Part shown: in pieces, positions 10,812 to 63,393 of the stretch
Layout of the letters: each line of letters opens with the position of its first letter
How positions within the stretch are numbered: position 1 is the first letter of the stretch
IMG/VR virus record: IMGVR_UViG_3300008113_000144
Span: 1-64,000 of that record
Reading direction: 5' to 3' (one strand)
DNA: 64,000 nt
DNA from: a virus
Position numbers and translations under genes: made by a program
The notes under the pieces: model-generated
What the model was told of the DNA's origin: nothing
The model's database searches: none
The model's input: the letters and a program-made list of their open reading frames with translations, nothing else

Positions 10812-13800
10812 CAGAATGAAGCGACAGCACGTAGATCCTGAATTTTTGGAACATATGCTGGATCATCAGTCTTCATGATAATCTTAATAGCAAATGAGGT
10901 AAATTCAGATAAATTAGAAGCACTATATGTGAATTCTTGATAATATGATTGCTTTTCAAACTGACCAGAAATAGAATTAGAAGCAGATGCTAAATCATCA
11001 TTGTCTGGATTACCATCAACATTAAAGAAGTTCCAATTAATATCATCAAAATTGGTTTGAGCTGAAGTCTCTTTAATCTTATAAAGAACCTTGACATTTT
11101 CAACATCCTTTAGATTAATAGTTAATCTAACATCAATAGAAGTTCCTGGAGAATTAATAGAAACTTCTTTTGTAACGTACTTAGCTACAGAAGAGCTATT
11201 TTTGGCATCAGTCTCTTTAACATAATCAACGCCCGTAGTAAATTCCATTGAAGCAACTTCTACATATTTTCCATCGGTAGACTTTAAAATATCTCCGACT
11301 CTAAAAATATCTGGGGATTGATTTGCTGGATCATCTTGACGTACAAAAGCACTGTCTTTAGTAATTTTACTCATATAATCATTATTAATTGGAGCATATG
11401 AATTTTCAACAATCATTTCTTTATCTTTAGAATCCCAAACAATAACTCTTCCGTTAATTTTATTGGAATAATCAATATTGACATTTTGTGGATAATAAGA
11501 AACAACATTTGAATTTTCACTAAAACTAAATTCTAATTCAGAAATTGATGAAATAGTAATGCTGATAGTATCGATAATAATACCATCAGAACCAATTAGT
11601 GTAGCTCCTTCATTTTGAATAAATGGAGTTTTCGATTTTAATCTTACTAAAGCTACACTATTTGTTATTTGAACAATAGTAGCTTCTGCTTTAGATGTGT
11701 TGCCAACTAAAGTTTGATTTTGACCGATTACACCAGATGAGCCAACAACATTTAGGGATAAGTTATACAATGGCAAGAAGCGAAGAATTTGATTTCTCTT
11801 ACCATAACGATTTTCATAACCAGTTGAATTTTCTACACGAGAAGATTGTGTTTTGACAGAGGCATATCTTAAATCAATTACAGGGCTTAAGTTGGCATTA
11901 GTTGAAGATAATACAAATTTGTATGTGAGAGATCTGTCAATTTGATTTAATGTCTCGTTGATTCTTGATGAAATAACTTTTTGATTTGTGAAGAATTGCT
12001 CTTCATTGATAAAAGTTTTTTCAAAATCAGTTTGTGAATATGAAACATAGTTTGTTGTTCTAGAATCAACTGGAACAATATTAGTTGTTTTTACGAAAGA
12101 ATCTACCGAAGTTCCATCTAATTTTAAAAATGCTACTTGAGCATAAAGTTTTTCAAACTTTCTATTATATGAGGCGAGAACTTTATTTCCTCCACCAAGA
12201 ATGCTGGAACCAGCTCTATTTGGTCCAACAATATTATATGTGTCAATACCAGAGTTGGTAATTTTAAATAATCCACTGTTTAAGCTTACAGAAGAAATTC
12301 CTCCAACATCTTCACAGTTTTTGAAGAATACAAAAGAATCTCCATTATCTTCAAAACCATGATCTCTGTGAGTAACTTTAATAATCGAATTATTATTTTT
12401 GAATAATGAAGATGTAGCATTTGTTGCTGATCTTACACTAGTCTCAAATGGAGATGGATCTAGTAATTCATAACCTAAGTCTTGGTTTGAAACTAAAAGC
12501 TCAGCATTTCTTGAGATACTAAATTCTGCTTTATATAAATTAAATTTAATATCTTCAAATAAATCTTCTGTCCAGTTATCAGTATTTTGTGACTTATAAA
12601 CAGAACCAAGTAAAGGTTGTGAAGAAACTACATTGCTTGTGGAAATTTCAGTTTCACCGAGTTTAGAAGCCCACAATTCATATTCTATAGAATCAGTTTC
12701 AATATTTAAAGCATACTCAGTATTATTTTGTAGATAAACTGGGTACTTGAAATTAAATCTTGTAGGAACCGTAGATGGAGTGACACCATCTCTATCGATC
12801 GCCACGCCCATAGAAACAGCTGGAGTATCAATCTCAATAACTGATTCAATAACAGCACCACCAGAGCCAGTGCCAACTCCTCTAATAACAACAGAAGGAG
12901 CTTCAGTGTATCCTCTTCCATTTAAGGACAAGTTTGTATTATAAATTTTCCCGTCAGAAACATCAACAGTACCAGTAGCTGTGCTGCCGCCAGGAAGTTG
13001 AGGACTTTCAATAATAATTGTGGCACTGGTATAGTTTTCTCCTACATTAGTTACCTTCAAATCAACAACTTTACCAGAATCTTTAGCAATAAAGATTGCT
13101 ACATTGGTATTATTTCTAGCATTGTAATCTTTTACGGAAGGAATAACAAGCTGTTCATTTTGTACGAATGAAACACCGTTGTGATTTTCTAGAACAAGAG
13201 TATATACTTGCTCTTTGTTTAATTCAAAAGTTGTGGAAGTTTCGTCACCAATTTGAATGTTATTTTTGTCAAAAACTTTTAAAATTGGACCACTAGCATT
13301 AGAATTTTTTCCAGTTACAAATTCCGACTTGCTGATAGAAATTGTCTCTGTATCGCCAGTTACATATATTTTTAATAGTGTTTCTGGTCTCAAAGTACAC
13401 TCTGCTCCAGGTACTACAAACTTTCCTGGCTTACCAACATCAATGTTAGTTAAATATGCTCTTATAGGAATGGAAGAACTCTTCTTAGCAAAATAAAGAT
13501 CTACCCCAGTAACAAAAACACCACCTTGATAGTTTTCAATTTTGAAAGTTTGAGCCAATGGATTTGGTTTAATTTCTAGATCAGTATTGCTATTGACAAG
13601 TTGAACACCTTCATTAGCTTTGAAGAATGCTGTTTCTGTTGAAACAATAGAAGGAGGATTTTGTGGAATTATGCCAGTAGCATAGAATTTAACATCAGCA
13701 TAAGTATCTACATTTTCTTTAATATCGTTAGTAGAACTTGAGGTGAATCTAATTGTTTTAGCACCACTAGTGAATCTAACTTCCTCAGAATTTTCATCAT

Positions 13801-40167: not shown

Positions 40168-40224
40168 AGAATAACATGGGTGGGGGCTGGTGTCAAGCCC
40201 CCTGTGACACTTAATCAGATGGCA
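40168..40224 (-). promoter_or_regulatory. Strong early promoter with dyad, overlapping a G/C hairpin
   Basis: -10 TATTCT (40168-40173), -35 TTGACA (40191-40196), spacer exactly 17 bp, dyad 40203-40224 (gap 29 bp). The -35 lies in the loop of a 7-bp stem (GGGGGCT ... AGCCCCC). The dyad overlaps the end of the 59-residue gene. Confidence 0.75.
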
Positions 40225-48397: not shown

Positions 48398-48559
48398 CTA
48401 TTTAGATTTACGTTTTGGTTTCTTCTGTTTTTCTCTATGTTTCTTCAACGCTTCGATGGCTTCCTCATCAGTCTTGTGATCACTGAGTTGAAAGCCATTA
48501 TATATCAAAACAAAACGGTCCCCCCAGGGGACCGTAGCATATCCATCTTTGGTTATCAT
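48398..48559 (-). CDS. Small protein with very basic tail, 53 aa
   Basis: The ATG at 48559 gives MITKDGYATVPWGDRFVLIY then NGFQLSDHKTDEEAIEALKK and HREKQKKPKRKSK, TAG at 48398. A small beta hairpin is followed by a helix and a Lys-rich end. ATGA overlap with the upstream gene. Possibly nucleic-acid binding. Confidence 0.7.
   Translation of the reverse strand: MITKDGYATVPWGDRFVLIYNGFQLSDHKTDEEAIEALKKHREKQKKPKRKSK
48399..48406 (-). promoter_or_regulatory. Late-type promoter (TCTAAATA) for the 581-residue gene
   Basis: Minus-strand TCTAAATA, 18 nt above the ATG at 48381, overlapping the stop of the 53-residue gene. The same sequence precedes the DUF4815 gene. A small inverted repeat (AATAGTT ... 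AACTATT) lies right after it. Confidence 0.5.
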
Positions 48560-49844: not shown

Positions 49845-49903
49845 ATTATAGGGGTGGAACCACCCCGTTGTGGGGTGGTCTTGTGTCAGTTGTCAGGCTG
49901 TCA
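49845..49903 (-). promoter_or_regulatory. Early promoter with dyad and 8-bp hairpin
   Basis: -10 TATAAT (49845-49850), dyad 49882-49903 (gap 31 bp), no -35. A perfect 8-bp stem (ACCACCCC ... GGGGTGGT, about 49858-49878) fills the space between. GTCAACAACGG lies in the leader. Confidence 0.7.
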
Positions 49904-50357
49904 CAACCTCGGGCATCGGCAGCTCGTGGGTGTTGCCACTACCCCAGCCGATCCTGTAGGCTCGCCACTTGCCTTCGGTGGTGTACAGGTAAGCAAACTC
50001 CTCGCCAGTGTTGCCACTGGTGAACTCTTCAAAGTCACCGTGAGTGATCTCCAGTTCTTCGCCACGCTCAGTGTGGTAGAGGGGCTGGGGAGCACGAGTG
50101 GGAGAATACACCCAGTTGCCGTCCATGTCACGAGCGATGTCTCCATCCTCAGTACGAACCACAGACGTGATCCACAGATGGGTGGTCCGAAGCGAAGACA
50201 TGCTACCGCCGTCGATCAGCTGACGGACAGCTTCACGATCTTGGTAGTGCTCAGCAAGAATACGACCGTTGTGCTCCAGGTAGCCATCATAGTGGCAGTA
50301 AACACTGATAATGCTGTTGTCAGGCAGTTGGTAGCCGATCCGAGAGCGAGTGCCCAT
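49893..50357 (-). CDS. Conserved phage protein (MGTRSRIG family), 154 aa
   Basis: ATG at 50357 chosen: MGTRSRIGYQLPDNSIISVY then CHYDGYLEHNGRILAEHYQD. This opening (MGTRSRIG...SVYCHxDGYxxHNG.IL..HY) is one of the commonest unnamed phage proteins, also found as bacterial homologues. The middle is beta-rich with an extended acidic loop (TERGEELEITHGDFEEFTSG) and C-terminal WRAYRIGWGSGN. Monocistronic. Its function is unknown. Confidence 0.85.
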   Translation of the reverse strand: MGTRSRIGYQLPDNSIISVYCHYDGYLEHNGRILAEHYQDREAVRQLIDGGSMSSLRTTHLWITSVVRTEDGDIARDMDGNWVYSPTRAPQPLYHTERGEELEITHGDFEEFTSGNTGEEFAYLYTTEGKWRAYRIGWGSGNTHELPMPEVVTA

Positions 50358-50382
50358 GTGGTCCTCCGTTGTTGACCCTCTT

Positions 50383-50439
50383 AATATAGGGCAAAAGAAA
50401 GGGGGCGTCAAGCCCCCTGTGCCACTCTGTCAGCTGTCA
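50383..50439 (-). promoter_or_regulatory. Composite terminator-promoter with dyad
   Basis: -10 TATATT (50383-50388), -35 TTGACG (50406-50411), 17-bp spacer, dyad 50418-50439 (gap 29 bp). The -35 sits in the loop of the hairpin GGGGGC-TTGAC-GCCCCC, followed by TTTCTTTT, so the same DNA ends the 53-residue gene's transcript and starts the next. Confidence 0.8.
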
Positions 50440-50598
50440 CACACCATGTTCTCTCATGCTTCTCACAAGATATGCTGTAAATTGTTCCATTTTTTCTGGC
50501 GATACTGATTGTGGACAATAATGAATAGCATTCCTTAGAGCAATCATTTCATTGTATTCTTCCTGGTTAAGCTCTTCTTTTTTGTTGGAATAGGTCAT
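50437..50598 (-). CDS. Small protein, 53 aa
   Basis: The ATG at 50598 gives MTYSNKKEELNQEEYNEMIA then LRNAIHYCPQSVSPEKMEQF and TAYLVRSMREHGV, TGA at 50437. Proteins with the NQEEY.EMIALRNAI.Y.P.SV.P.KME.F pattern recur in cyanophages. Weak promoter (TATAAT at 50620-50625) without dyad or -35. Function unknown. Confidence 0.75.
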   Translation of the reverse strand: MTYSNKKEELNQEEYNEMIALRNAIHYCPQSVSPEKMEQFTAYLVRSMREHGV

Positions 50599-57587: not shown

Positions 57588-57644
57588 AGTATAGACCATA
57601 AAAAAGGGGGCGTCAACCCCCCTGTGTCGGTTTCAGAACTGTCC
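57588..57644 (-). promoter_or_regulatory. Composite terminator-promoter with dyad
   Basis: -10 TATACT (57588-57593), -35 TTGACG (57611-57616), 17-bp spacer, dyad 57623-57644 (gap 29 bp). The -35 lies in the loop of a G/C stem (606-610 with 617-621) followed by TTTTTT, so it also terminates the phosphatase gene. The leader has GTTCAAAT before the ATG. Confidence 0.85.
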
Positions 57645-58103
57645 TTTACCCTGCCCCACATCAAATACCCAGATGCCACGCTGAACCCACATGTTTACAA
57701 CACGCTGGCGATCATCAAAGACACCCAGAATCATGTGAGTTTTGAGGATTTCATCAGCAATCTCGCCTTTGACGACGGCATCATCACGATGATCTTTATA
57801 CTTTCTCATATACAGACCATCCCATTTGAAACCAAAGGCAGTCAACCACTCTTCTGTTTGCTCACGATAGTCGTCTGATCGACCAGATACAAAGAACAAA
57901 TCACAATCCATGGTTCCTTTGCTAGCATGTAGTGCTTTATACACATAATCTACTGCTAGATGAGGAACATCTTGTCCCAATCCTTTGTTCCAAGCATCCC
58001 AATTACGGGGTTTAGTTGCTACGTATTGACGACGATGGCGAACATCACAGATGGTGCCATCGAGATCGAAAACGAAGCACTTCTTTCGTACCACATTCGA
58101 CAT
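57633..58103 (-). CDS. Polynucleotide 3'-phosphatase (HAD), 156 aa
   Basis: ATG at 58103 (the upstream TTG is not needed). DLDGTICDVRHRR at about residues 13-25 is HAD motif I (Asp nucleophile and Asp+2). FFVSGRSDDYREQTEEWL provides motif II Ser, and ILGVFDDRQRVVNMW motif IV. Like the C-terminal half of T4 Pnkp, it would remove 3' phosphates before ligation. In T4 it is fused to the kinase; here they are separate and overlap by 59 nt in different frames. Length fits a single HAD domain. Confidence 0.85.
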   Translation of the reverse strand: MSNVVRKKCFVFDLDGTICDVRHRRQYVATKPRNWDAWNKGLGQDVPHLAVDYVYKALHASKGTMDCDLFFVSGRSDDYREQTEEWLTAFGFKWDGLYMRKYKDHRDDAVVKGEIADEILKTHMILGVFDDRQRVVNMWVQRGIWVFDVGQGKGQF

Positions 58104-58554
58104 AATCAAATCCTTCTGCTACAGTTGGTTTTTCAAATTGATGATACATTCTTTTCAGAATGTCTTTAGGAATAAACTTACCGTCACGATGATTGTTTCG
58201 TTCCAGTGCTTCCTCTAGAGTAATTTCAAAGTAAATTGCTCCTCTATGATAGTATGATGGCAGTTTATTCAGTTTTTTCTTTCGTGCTTTGGCACTAAGA
58301 TTGGTCTGATCCCAGATAATATCTTTACCATTGTCGATGGCATATGGGATCAGTTTCTCCATCATCCATGTTGCTTCTTTGATATACTTATCGAACACTT
58401 CATTATACGTTTTGCCCTCTTTTTTGGCATAGTAATCAATGTAGTAGTCCGTCGAGAGAACCACAGAATTTTTCCAATAATCCAGAGCAAGAAGTTTATC
58501 CACATAGGTAGATTTCCCGCTGGTGGGGATACCACAAAGCATTACACATTCCAT
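58045..58554 (-). CDS. Polynucleotide 5'-kinase domain protein, 169 aa
   Basis: ATG at 58554 with GGAGG ahead. Walker A GIPTSGKST at residues 8-16, then a DQTNLSAKARKKKLNKL segment (lid/DxxN) and basic C-terminal region. It corresponds to the N-terminal kinase of T4 PseT/Pnkp, which phosphorylates RNA 5' ends. The C-terminus ends inside the start of the phosphatase gene. Confidence 0.85.
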   Translation of the reverse strand: MECVMLCGIPTSGKSTYVDKLLALDYWKNSVVLSTDYYIDYYAKKEGKTYNEVFDKYIKEATWMMEKLIPYAIDNGKDIIWDQTNLSAKARKKKLNKLPSYYHRGAIYFEITLEEALERNNHRDGKFIPKDILKRMYHQFEKPTVAEGFDYVECGTKEVLRFRSRWHHL

Positions 58555-59711
58555 TGAAGACCTCCGAAGAGCCAACGATTTTGGTCAATTTTAGTTTGAG
58601 TGGTGAGTGATTTGCTGATCATGTCAACGATAGTAGCACGGGATCCTTTGCCGCCTTTCATAGCATACATGATGGGGGCGTGGATTGGCAAGATTTTGGT
58701 CTGAACAAACTGGGTAGCGAAATCCTTTTTATCAGGATACATGGTGTTACCAGCATTATACATGTCTGCCATCTCACCAGCAAGGTCGTCCACTGCCATC
58801 CAGAAGGCGTTCTGGAACGCTTTGAGGCGATGGGCGTCGTCTGGTGTCAGCAACGGAATAACGTCGTCTACAGAGTCACTGAGGATGGTCTGGAGAACGT
58901 TTTTCTCTTGGTTGATCTGTTCTTTCGATTTGTGGCGAAGAACATATTCATCCGCTTTAACTTTGACCATGTGACCAGAATCAAAGCGAAGAACAACACC
59001 TTCACCATCATCCCATTCACGAACTTGCTTTACAAACAACTCAATGTTTTGAACAGCAAGACCAGCAAGTGCTTTTACGACAGGAATACCAGAATGTTCT
59101 GCCAGTTCAACCATATTATAATAGGGAAGATAAGTCCCACTGAAAGTATTACGGATACCAGTGAGAATCAGTTGATCTTCTGGATAATCTACAACGATAC
59201 GATTTTTACGAGAACACCACTCAAAAATAGGAGTCAGTTTAGCATCAATACAACCACGAATGAAATCATAGTAATCTAAATCATCAGCAATGAAATACTC
59301 AGCATTCATCGCTACCTCAGTAATACCTGCTTTGGTAGCAAGACGGAAACCTTCTTTGGTAGGGATCGGACGAATCATAGACCCATCCAGTTTCTCCAGC
59401 ACTACATGAGGTTCATATAGATTAATTTTATTGATTGCCGTTTCTTCACGCTCACCAGCATTGAAAAACTTGTGATACGGACGGGAGATAAGATTGCCAG
59501 TGGCAGTATCAAAGATCAGACCACGACATTCACGACGAATTTTCATGTTGTAATGAGATCGCTCACGAATGAGAGAGAAAGTATCCTCAAATGCTACCAT
59601 GTAGTTGATAACAGTATACCAATCCTTCTCCATGACCTTGAACTCAGGACGATCTTCGATGTGTGGAATCACATCGTCAATATGTTTGATCTCAGGAAAA
59701 TCGTAATTCAT
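58542..59711 (-). CDS. rnlA: RNA ligase 1 (T4 Rnl1 type), 389 aa
   Basis: Nucleotidyltransferase motif I KLDGSM at residues 107-112 (Lys107 adenylated), preceded by RRECRGLIFDTATGNLISRP typical of Rnl1. WDDGEGVVLRF is near motif IV and MVKVKADEYVLRHK motif V. The size is near T4 Rnl1 (374). With the kinase/phosphatase just downstream it can repair cleaved tRNA anticodon loops. A 13-nt overlap joins it to the kinase gene, showing one transcription unit. Confidence 0.88.
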   Translation of the reverse strand: MNYDFPEIKHIDDVIPHIEDRPEFKVMEKDWYTVINYMVAFEDTFSLIRERSHYNMKIRRECRGLIFDTATGNLISRPYHKFFNAGEREETAINKINLYEPHVVLEKLDGSMIRPIPTKEGFRLATKAGITEVAMNAEYFIADDLDYYDFIRGCIDAKLTPIFEWCSRKNRIVVDYPEDQLILTGIRNTFSGTYLPYYNMVELAEHSGIPVVKALAGLAVQNIELFVKQVREWDDGEGVVLRFDSGHMVKVKADEYVLRHKSKEQINQEKNVLQTILSDSVDDVIPLLTPDDAHRLKAFQNAFWMAVDDLAGEMADMYNAGNTMYPDKKDFATQFVQTKILPIHAPIMYAMKGGKGSRATIVDMISKSLTTQTKIDQNRWLFGGLQWNV

Positions 59712-59732: not shown

Positions 59733-59761
59733 AGTATAAAACCCCTCAACACAATTGTCAA
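59733..59761 (-). promoter_or_regulatory. Composite terminator-promoter for the RNA-repair operon
   Basis: -10 TATACT (59733-59738), -35 TTGACA (59756-59761), 17-bp spacer. The -35 is in the 5' arm of a 10-bp stem (CCCCTTGACA pairing with TGTTGAGGGG, two wobbles) and the -10 lies directly after the T run. No clear dyad; only a weak match near 59768. Confidence 0.75.
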
Positions 59762-59778
59762 GGGGTCATTGATAAGTG

Positions 59779-60186
59779 TTACGGATAGTGAGCAAGGATT
59801 TCAACAGTATATTTTATCTGTCCGCCAAACCCAGTAAATGTTGGGTCAACTTCTGCTTTAATTTCTGTTATAACTCCCTTTCCTCTTGCTACATCTTCCA
59901 TAACTTTATGGAATTGCTGTTCGATATTTGTTTGATATGGGATAGCAACATTTCTGTGATATGTTCCTATCGTTGAACATGTTATTCCATTAGAAACGAG
60001 AAGATTATTTGGATGAACATAATTACCAGTTAAAGTAATTCCTGTGTTTGTTAGTTGTGCTGTAGGAATTACAAACTGATCTTGTTCTTCTTCAACTTTT
60101 TCGGTAGTTTCTTCTATTACTTCTTCTATAGATTCTGGTTTTTCGCCATAAACTTCTTCAAATTTATCAAGTAGTGGGTTGCTCAT
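59779..60186 (-). CDS. Hypothetical protein, 135 aa
   Basis: ATG at 60186 (MSNPLLDKFEEVYGEKPESI), alternative ATG at 60192. Acidic N-terminal ~35 residues (EEVIEETTEKVEEEQDQF), then a beta-rich core (LTNTGITLTGNYVHPNNLL) and GGQIKYTVEILAHYP end. Last gene of the operon starting at 63743. Function unknown. Confidence 0.65.
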   Translation of the reverse strand: MSNPLLDKFEEVYGEKPESIEEVIEETTEKVEEEQDQFVIPTAQLTNTGITLTGNYVHPNNLLVSNGITCSTIGTYHRNVAIPYQTNIEQQFHKVMEDVARGKGVITEIKAEVDPTFTGFGGQIKYTVEILAHYP

Positions 60187-60526
60187 AATCATCGTCCCAT
60201 GGTGCTTTATGACTTAATACTCTAGCAATACTTTCATTAAATTGTGGTGGTTCGTTAAGTTTTTCCACAAGATTATCAAAATCTTCTTTCGATAATGTAA
60301 TACGTTCTGGCGGATAAGATCCTTTCCCCCAGAACTCTTCAAACCTATGAACGTAATTCATATGATCCCAACCATGATTGAGATTCAACCAAAAATCAGC
60401 ATATCGTTGGTGATCATCCATTCTCCAATAATCATGATTAATAAGACGATACCAATACCAGAAAATTGTATACTTAATCGGACTAAATCCGATTATCCAC
60501 TTGTTTAGCCACACTGGAAAGTTCAT
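60167..60526 (-). CDS. Trp/Tyr-rich protein with DUF1778-like tail, 119 aa
   Basis: Residues 1-65 are Trp/Tyr/His-rich (FPVWLNKWIIGFSPIKYTIF, WYWYRLINHDYWRMDDHQ). Residues ~75-112 read RITLSKEDFDNLVEKLNEP then PQFNESIARVLSH, close to the C-terminal helix pattern of DUF1778 antitoxins (L-S-x-E-D-F-x-x-L-V-x-x-L-x-x-P-P). It overlaps the upstream stop by 4 nt. A fusion of an unknown aromatic domain with an antitoxin-like segment is inferred. Confidence 0.55.
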   Translation of the reverse strand: MNFPVWLNKWIIGFSPIKYTIFWYWYRLINHDYWRMDDHQRYADFWLNLNHGWDHMNYVHRFEEFWGKGSYPPERITLSKEDFDNLVEKLNEPPQFNESIARVLSHKAPWDDDYEQPTT

Positions 60527-62031: not shown

Positions 62032-62805
62032 TTAAGAGAAGTTGTAGTGAACACGAGTGTGGAAATCTTTGTAGCAACTCTTATTAGAGAGCTTCATCAT
62101 CACAGGAGGAATGTAGTATGAATATTCACTGAAGAAATCTTCTTTACTGAGGAATCTGAGACCATGAAGATGCCAAGTGCCAAACTGCTCATGGAATGCT
62201 CTCACAGCACGATATTCTTTGGTTGTACAAGAAACATACCTATTGGTAGATGTTTCAAAATCTTCAGGATGACCAGGATTCGCCTGTGTCATCATAATAC
62301 ACACGGTTTGACCTTCACCTGTGCCGAAGTATTCGGAAACCATATACACCCAATGCTCATCCACTGGGAATACATCACGTTGATACTTCTGCTCGTATTC
62401 TTTCATACAAGCATCGGCAACCAGTTGAAAGTTTTCTTTCTTCTTTGCTTGTAGTTCTTCAATCAGTTCTTCATGTTCAATTTTACGAAGTTCTTTGAGA
62501 GCATCGGAATACTTATCAATACCAGCAATAGCAGTTCTCACAGCATCCATTCGTTCCTCCTTTTCAATATCAGCAAGTTCTTTTAGAGCATCGCTATTTT
62601 CAGCATACAGTTTTTCTACTGCTTCCCATGCTTTTTTGTTTGCTTCCTCTCGCTTTGCTGCTTCTTCAAGCATTTCTTCGTGTGTCATAAATCCATCGTA
62701 TTGTGTGTTTAACCAAGGAGTATCATCTTTTTTTGAAGCCCAGCCTAAATTTGGCCATGTATCACGGTAGATTTCGTTGAGTTTCTCGTTGTCATAGATC
62801 ATCAT
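62032..62805 (-). CDS. Hypothetical protein with duplicated helix block, 257 aa
   Basis: Residues ~45-130 contain an internal duplication (SDALKELADIEKEERMDAV and SDALKELRKIEHEELIEEL), forming a long charged helix. The C-terminal third is beta-rich (HWVYMVSEYFGTGEGQTVCI) with ATG codons at 62805 and 62802. No domain recognised. It overlaps the gene upstream by 14 nt. Confidence 0.65.
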   Translation of the reverse strand: MMIYDNEKLNEIYRDTWPNLGWASKKDDTPWLNTQYDGFMTHEEMLEEAAKREEANKKAWEAVEKLYAENSDALKELADIEKEERMDAVRTAIAGIDKYSDALKELRKIEHEELIEELQAKKKENFQLVADACMKEYEQKYQRDVFPVDEHWVYMVSEYFGTGEGQTVCIMMTQANPGHPEDFETSTNRYVSCTTKEYRAVRAFHEQFGTWHLHGLRFLSKEDFFSEYSYYIPPVMMKLSNKSCYKDFHTRVHYNFS

Positions 62806-63169
62806 CTAACTCCACATCTTTTACAAGATCTTTAAGACGATCAAAGAAATCTTCATCAAGCGGAATCAGTTTTTCTTCGCCACGATCAATACGATCACAC
62901 ATTTCCATCAAATCTTCAAGGAAGAATTTAGGATAGCATTCATCTTCTCCAAGAGATACCCAAAACCATTCATAACATTCTGTAAAAGGATCGTCAGTGT
63001 GAAGTAAAGTATAATCTTTGAAATTATCTGTCATGAGATCACGCCAAATTCGGAATGCTCCATGAATACTTTGCCATCCAGTCATCCAACAGTGACCAAT
63101 CCAATACTCCCACCAATTCATTGTGGTTTTCTTAGATGCTGTTCCTTTTACAGATTTTGAAAATGTCAT
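62792..63169 (-). CDS. Trp-rich hypothetical protein, 125 aa
   Basis: ATG 63169 overlaps the previous stop (ATGA), supporting this start over Met17. Residues 17-60 are Trp-rich (NWWEYWIGHCWMTGWQSIHG) and the C-terminus is very acidic (RLKDLVKDVELDDDL). Fourth member of the aromatic-rich group in this operon. Function unknown. Confidence 0.6.
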   Translation of the reverse strand: MTFSKSVKGTASKKTTMNWWEYWIGHCWMTGWQSIHGAFRIWRDLMTDNFKDYTLLHTDDPFTECYEWFWVSLGEDECYPKFFLEDLMEMCDRIDRGEEKLIPLDEDFFDRLKDLVKDVELDDDL

Positions 63170-63393
63170 AGAAGATCGGAAATAATCAAGTTAACTTCTT
63201 CGATAATCTCTTCTTTGAGTTTATCGTAATCAGATTTGGGTGCCTCGCTGGTTTCTTCTTTTTCTTTTGATTTGGCAGCGTATTCAAGTTGAACAATCGT
63301 TGCTTGGAGAGTGATAATTTTGCTCTCAAGATCTCGTAAATGCTGCTCCAGGGGAACACAAGAACCAGAGTTGGTGTTGACAGTAATTTCCAT
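63166..63393 (-). CDS. Coiled-coil protein, 75 aa
   Basis: MEITVNTNSGSCVPLEQHLR then DLESKIITLQATIVQLEYAA: coiled coil over residues ~15-45, then a charged linker (SKEKEETSEAPKSDYDKL) and a hydrophobic helix. Function unknown. Confidence 0.65.
   Translation of the reverse strand: MEITVNTNSGSCVPLEQHLRDLESKIITLQATIVQLEYAAKSKEKEETSEAPKSDYDKLKEEIIEEVNLIISDLL

Follow-up and report, generated by a model that had tools for sequence, protein, structure and literature searches.

We report that short intergenic elements in a T4-like cyanophage are, with good probability, overlapped terminator-promoters that form operon boundaries, the terminator of one operon occupying the -35 slot of the promoter of the next. 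The window—the whole stretch of 64,000 bases analyzed—covers positions 1-64000 of a virus record of 92,980 bases. This record is a fragment from the Kyanoviridae (T4-like cyanophages), and its closest phage records are the Synechococcus phages S-CREM1 and S-SZBM1, of the same family. Terminator and promoter signals occur together in fixed register between codirectional genes, hairpins in this register are enriched across the family, their stems covary, and the genes on either side change. The role of the element is probably that of a compact, insulated operon boundary, in which ~35 bases probably have two uses, halting polymerase as a hairpin in the RNA and providing, as DNA, the site at which polymerase restarts.

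Terminator and Promoter Signals at the Boundaries

What separates successive operons in this genome? A sequence-only reading of the window had pointed to sites at which a G/C stem followed by a T run ends one operon while TTGACG or TTGACA in the loop or stem is the -35 of the next, 17 bp from its -10. This combination is present at three sites, and the fourth, said to have a hairpin without a T run, is likewise as described (40202-40182, with TTGACA and the -10 TATTCT). All four sites lie on the minus strand, which that reading had left out.

Site 1 (50418-50383)
50400-50418, minus: terminator hairpin AGGGGGCTTGACGCCCCCT, then TTCTTTTG (50399-50392); minimum free energy (MFE) -14.5 kcal/mol, z -3.3 (RNA folding)
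50406-50411, minus: -35-like TTGACG in the hairpin loop, its final G paired
50383-50388, minus: -10-like TATATT, spacer 17; predicted start near 50376
50418-50441, minus: 24-bp dyad TGTGACAGCTGACAGAGTGGCACA, with 6 bp between its end and the -35
50437-50598, minus: upstream gene, 53 aa, phrog_14124, ending at the composite
49893-50357, minus: downstream gene, 154 aa, phrog_1987, GGAGG directly ahead of its ATG

Site 2 (57623-57588)
57604-57623, minus: terminator hairpin AGGGGGGTTGACGCCCCCTT, then TTTTATGG; MFE -13.0 kcal/mol, z -2.7 (RNA folding)
57611-57616, minus: -35-like TTGACG, in the loop; orthologs L346 and L347 have TTGACA and altered stems
57588-57593, minus: -10-like TATACT, spacer 17
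57633-58103, minus: upstream gene, PNKP-type HAD phosphatase, 156 aa
57362-57565, minus: downstream gene, small hydrophobic protein, 67 aa, phrog_1374

Site 3 (59766-59733)
59741-59766, minus: hairpin ACCCCTTGACAATTGTGTTGAGGGGT, then TTTATACT; MFE -16.8 kcal/mol, z -4.7 (RNA folding)
59756-59761, minus: -35 TTGACA in the 5' stem arm, paired partly via G-U pairs
59733-59738, minus: -10 TATACT, spacer 17
59779-60192, minus: upstream gene, 137 aa, without a family match
58542-59711, minus: downstream gene, T4 Rnl1-type RNA ligase, 389 aa

Site 4 (40202-40168)
40168-40202, minus: element with hairpin GGGGGCTTGACACCAGCCCCC (40202-40182), without a T run, z -1.8
40196-40191, minus: TTGACA
40173-40168, minus: -10 TATTCT, spacer 17
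40226-40203, minus: dyad-like sequence upstream

Related elements
G000 67914-67880, outside the window, minus: another complete composite (AGGGGCTTGACGAGCCCCTTTTTTTGTGACATACT), dyad included, with a stop codon on one side and a 408-aa gene on the other
48497-48535, minus: T-tailed hairpin (48535-48515) standing in register with a promoter -10, TATAAT (48502-48497); no -35

The three T-tailed sites lie between codirectional genes, 9-18 nt past the stop codon and 22-26 nt ahead of the next ATG. At each of them a stop codon is followed by a G/C hairpin and a U-rich tract, as in an intrinsic terminator (site 4, without a T run, differs), and the -35 and -10 ahead of the next start codon are spaced within the 16-18 bp range of promoters of the sigma-70 type. 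Matches of these hexamers to the E. coli consensus amount to 11/12, 10/12, and 10/12 across the three sites. A promoter built into a terminator had been suggested to make the boundary compact; both signals are indeed in the sequence, the overlapping stretch at each boundary is ~35 bases, and stop and start are 64-79 nt apart. The T run of site 3 is short (TTTT) and merges into the -10, and it is also short in relatives of this site. When long-range folds of the leader RNA were considered, the hairpin was retained in the minimum-energy fold at 4/4 sites; thus, no antiterminator was seen.

Two of the composites touch an RNA repair pair encoded on the minus strand, the PNKP-type phosphatase (58103-57633) and the T4 Rnl1-type RNA ligase (59711-58542): one composite follows the phosphatase gene, and another stands ahead of the ligase gene.

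Register of Hairpins and Promoters

How often do terminators fall on the -35 position? The record (93 kb) contains 36 T-tailed hairpins, five of which have an in-hairpin -35 together with a -10; three dinucleotide shuffles yielded 0, 0, and 0. A strict pattern, GGGNTTGACRCCC, nearly overlooked the family in six phage genomes because the stems are variable, and in an offset histogram with loose promoter calls noise hid the peak. We therefore used a register test, in which all T-tailed hairpins were listed and the positions of strong -10s were recorded relative to the hairpin center, without selection on the -35, in nine genomes (this record, S-CREM1, Syn9, S-PM2, S-SZBM1, S-CRM01, S-CAM3, S-RIM32, and P-SSM7).

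Among 412 T-tailed hairpins in these genomes, 47 had a strong -10 at +18 to +22 nt, where 12.1 were expected (Poisson p 2e-14). This is the single clear -10 peak, it corresponds to a hairpin covering the -35, and the excess comes to ~35 in-register elements over the nine genomes. At least 4/6 of the -35 consensus was present in 15/47 of the in-register hairpins, against 1.15 expected from segment shuffling. With a stricter stem, the -35 slot held 33 T-tailed hairpins (6.5 expected), while hairpins lacking the T tail were not enriched there in the same nine genomes (12 vs. 9.5 expected, p 0.25). Because the excess is confined to T-tailed hairpins, the -35 slot appears to be occupied by terminators and not by palindromes as such. 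No in-register peak was found in T4, RB49, or KVP40.

In-slot hairpins without a T run do occur in this record. Those at 49880, 40202, 37816, and 37495 (minus strand) have C-rich sequence in its place (e.g., GGGGGCAGCAATGCCCCCACCTGCCCCCTATACT), and 3/12 of the nine-genome total come from this record, although it is the shortest genome.

Conservation at Orthologous Boundaries

Are both signals kept in relatives? Relatives, given here as numbered loci, were gathered via the downstream protein and not via the hairpin. Their boundaries contained 16 in-register hairpins, compared with ~1.1 expected from shuffles, and 8 more sites with the -35 in the 5' arm. Ahead of the 67-aa gene, the window reads AGGGGGG-TTGACG-CCCCCTT, L346 AGGGGC-TTGACA-GCCCCT, and L347 AAGAGGG-TTGACA-CCCTCTT, while L353 pairs ACCCCACC with GGTGGGGT around the loop TTCACA and L360 pairs ACCACCTC with GGGGTGGT around CTGACG. 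The -10 is constant across these five boundaries while the stems differ. Likewise, at the hli boundary TTGAC is flanked by GAGGGGC/GCCCCTC in Sf-CH3 and by AGGGGGG/CCCCCCT in S-RIM32, and the arms of site 3 are still paired, with changes, in L325, L327, L340, L341, L348, L359, and L388. The stems thus covary through compensating changes around a retained -35, with the loop hexamer and the -10 usually unchanged.

The sequence-only reading had looked to relatives for conservation of both functions, and this usually held, with compensating stems and with TTGACR and the -10 kept; there were exceptions. A -35 that drifts while the stem is kept, which it had named as evidence against itself, occurs in L336, L343/L344, L371, L378, and L402, where only 3/6 of the consensus remains. 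The -35 is weak (4/6) in L324 and L331. Among orthologs of site 1, L305 has TTGACG, L311 ATGACA, and L308 TGGACA; the last two, which are distant, keep the hairpin and -35, have lost the T run, and show AAA after the hairpin. In L307 and L333 the -35 and -10 are kept and the hairpin is absent. Since some relatives lose the -35 and others the T run, the constant part is a hairpin in the -35 slot plus a -10. The consensus -35 in the loop is then one version of the element, and its degeneracy in part of the family suggests that it may be dispensable.

The genes joined by the element also vary. Homologs of four different window genes stand upstream of the 67-aa gene, with a composite or hairpin-promoter in between. 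Those of the gene at 59782-60213 precede either the RNA ligase or the 67-aa gene, and a homolog of the gene at 62795-63190 is found ahead of the RNA ligase in L336 and of the 67-aa gene in L370. The boundaries may thus coincide with places of gene-order shuffling.

Distribution across Viruses

Is the arrangement particular to cyanophages? Scanning IMG/VR for GGGGGNTTGACRCCCCC returned at least 119 stretches. Among the matches listed, 81 sites were nonredundant, and a -10 stood at spacing 17 in 38 of them and in at most 8 at the other spacings between 12 and 24. Loci with hairpin, T run, and -10 had cyanophage protein matches in 70/70 cases among the matches listed, and the full element was present in 0/36 of the loci without cyanophage matches. 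This sample was fixed to a single stem sequence, so these counts express association and not frequency. An unbiased scan of IMG/VR for GGGGG-N7-CCCCC-T6 found TTGAC in the loop of only 2/109 viral hairpins; thus, the overlap is not a general property of terminators. By these sequence comparisons, the terminator-in-promoter arrangement is a family-wide cyanophage trait.

In annotated isolates the element again lies between codirectional genes: between regA and the following gene in S-CAM3, ahead of the high-light-inducible gene hli in Sf-CH3, S-H9-2, S-RIM32, and S-CAM1, and ahead of a glutaredoxin gene in P-SSM7. Inspection of partial BLAST matches in Krischvirus and Pseudotevenvirus showed hairpins that had no -35 in register.

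In several marine cyanophages (loci L422, L423, L424, and L426, around 499-545), the stems of the elements directly ahead of hli show compensating differences. Full overlaps outside the cyanophages (around 499-540) occur in Stenotrophomonas phage CM1 (L429, AAGGGGCTTGACGGCCCCTTTTTCTTTGCCTATAAT) and Enterococcus phage Toszka (L432, AAGGGGCTTGACGAAGCCTCTTTTTTGTGCTATATT), so the layout may have independent origins too.

A Dyad Upstream of the Element

Directly upstream of many elements lies an imperfect 24-bp dyad, TGTGACA-N10-TGGCACA. Copies on the minus strand at 50441-50418, 46649, 42058, 41282, 49905, and other positions stand about 28-30 bp upstream of -10 hexamers, the distance from dyad end to -10 being 28-30 bp in most cases. 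The gap between its halves is strictly 10: allowing up to two mismatches, this record has 11 matches at that gap and 0-1 at others. A hairpin lies between dyad and -10 in 34/139 dyad promoters (6.5 expected), and 29/34 of these hairpins are centered on the -35. Many hairpin-holding dyad promoters lack a consensus -35, at least 4/6 of which is present in 12/34. Conversely, 16/106 in-register hairpins have a dyad score of at least 10, against a background of 0.2%. The dyad also occurs in Syn9, S-PM2, S-CRM01, and S-SZBM1 and is absent from RB49.

Because so many hairpin-holding dyad promoters are without a consensus -35, the general layout would be a dyad, a terminator in the -35 slot, and a -10; judged by its motifs, the element with TTGAC in the loop is the version of this layout that additionally retains a -35. 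The dyad itself looks like a putative activator site of a promoter class.

Proposed Working and Alternative Readings

How might one stretch serve both signals? The RNA of the upstream operon would fold into the G/C hairpin at the U-rich tract and be released, with a predicted 3' end a few nucleotides before the -10. In duplex DNA, these bases would form the -35 region of the next promoter, the terminator being centered ~20 nt before the -10, and TTGACR in the loop or an arm would leave a site usable by sigma-70 holoenzyme. In the -35-less version, the promoter probably relies on the upstream 24-bp dyad, an extended -10, or both. The polymerase holoenzyme would start ~7 nt past the -10. As the promoter's RNA would begin downstream of the hairpin, new RNA should be free of the hairpin and unaffected by it. 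Terminating and open complexes would be mutually exclusive at the element; heavy transcription arriving from upstream should therefore either hinder initiation or, with recycling of polymerase, supply it. Rho is missing from the host group, and Synechococcus elongatus has ends with a hairpin and U-tract (PMC13289151), which makes such hairpins plausible as terminators.

A different division of labor has a modest chance of being right: the terminator is real, the TTGAC in its loop is a nonworking relic or product of drift, and the dyad, as an activator site, drives the promoter together with an extended -10. Such an arrangement would fit the limited share of hairpins reaching 4/6 of the -35 (15/47 in register, 12/34 in dyad promoters), the relatives that retain the hairpin without a -35 (L336, L343, L371, L378, and L402), and the high-scoring dyads at in-register hairpins. 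It fits poorly with the 15 in-hairpin -35s against little more than one expected, with a TTGACR that is unchanged while both arms differ (L346, L347, and the window), and with the IMG/VR composites, most of which, among the matches listed, have no visible dyad yet combine TTGAC with a -10 at 17. Alternatively, the hairpin could be mainly a DNA palindrome (an operator) around the -35, or a stabilizer of RNA 3' ends, and not a terminator. The T run is missing at 40202, 49880, 37816, and 37495 in this genome, and L308 and L311 keep a hairpin followed by AAA, as this would predict; we consider it unlikely, because enrichment in the -35 slot is restricted to T-tailed hairpins and because stem sequences vary widely between sites, unlike those of an operator. 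On the lack of enrichment among hairpins without a T tail in the nine genomes, the DNA operator or palindrome was set aside.

Mere co-occurrence of G/C-rich hairpins and TTGAC through composition is very improbable. Generic matches to the promoter consensus are common (89, with 60 expected), and of the record's five composites the one at 12989, within a coding region, is probably due to chance; the spacing, register, taxon, and ortholog tests all count against composition, and the register test refutes it for the set as a whole. The boundary might instead hand polymerase on, RNA polymerase staying on the DNA after recycling termination and reinitiating at the overlapped promoter, a reading to which we attach a small probability. 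Recycling termination with facilitated reinitiation at the nearest promoter is known in vitro for E. coli RNA polymerase (PMC11347151), and about 15-17 nt separate the predicted 3' end from the predicted start downstream; a terminating complex would cover the promoter, so the overlap could delay initiation instead, and in sequence a hand-off and plain insulation look alike. A switchable boundary is a long shot: a dyad-binding protein would activate the promoter and affect termination, giving either end-and-restart or read-through, with the terminated polymerase handed to the overlapped promoter.

Relation to Known Elements

The overlapped terminator-promoter, our preferred reading, invites comparison with promoter-early stem-loops (PeSLs), reportedly described by Arbiol in 2010 and Comeau in 2014 from the T4-like phages RB49, phi1, PST, and nt-1. 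PeSLs are said to lie between small accessory genes and to combine a stem-loop terminator with a sigma-70-like promoter, and they have reportedly been tied to gene-order shuffling. One source, which cites both studies, describes the PeSL as a composite promoter-terminator cassette of T4-like phages and judges S-PM2 to be without the dense PeSLs of the others (PMC4503421). The cyanophage element similarly combines a sigma-70-like promoter and an intrinsic-terminator-like stem-loop in one intergenic cassette, is present in several copies per genome (in this record at 50418, 57623, 59766, and 67914), and has changing gene partners on either side. It differs in that its -35 is part of the hairpin, with the stem ending 10-13 nt farther on (overlapped), whereas in RB49 a distance of 12-17 or 30-32 nt separates the end of the terminator stem from the -35 downstream of it (tandem)—a layout that we measured on RB49 here and that may not belong to the authors' definition of a PeSL. 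Our best reading is that the cyanophage element would work like a PeSL in overlapped form, a likeness that we do not extend to membership.

T4 middle promoters consist of a MotA box and an extended -10. Some cyanophage elements resemble them in having an upstream recognition motif and no -35, but in place of a MotA box they have a 24-bp dyad, located 28-30 bp before the -10. The sigma-70-like early promoters of S-PM2 and Syn9 belong, by consensus, to the same promoter class as those described here, and in that comparison cyanophages are without alt, mod, motA, and asiA (PMC2984593); we found no mention of a terminator overlapping the -35 in the early-promoter reports consulted. Recycling termination likewise places a terminator beside a promoter and makes a next round possible from the terminated polymerase, but it is an in vitro mechanism of the E. 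coli enzyme and not a sequence family (PMC11347151).

One stretch of DNA would thus serve both signals across a large family of ocean and freshwater viruses with Rho-less hosts. These boundaries offer natural test objects for the way in which host polymerase terminates and starts again on phage genomes, including a possible immediate reuse of the terminated polymerase, and for how gene cassettes can be swapped without loss of control signals. They also carry a warning for annotation: in Kyanoviridae cyanophages the bases called as a terminator are often those of the next promoter, and promoter finders that require a -35 will overlook many such promoters.

In a third layout, the 3' arm of a T-tailed hairpin contains TTGACA and the complement of this hexamer lies upstream; examples (record coordinates) are 8304 and 152167 in S-CREM1, 188771 in S-PM2, and 105663 in S-SZBM1.
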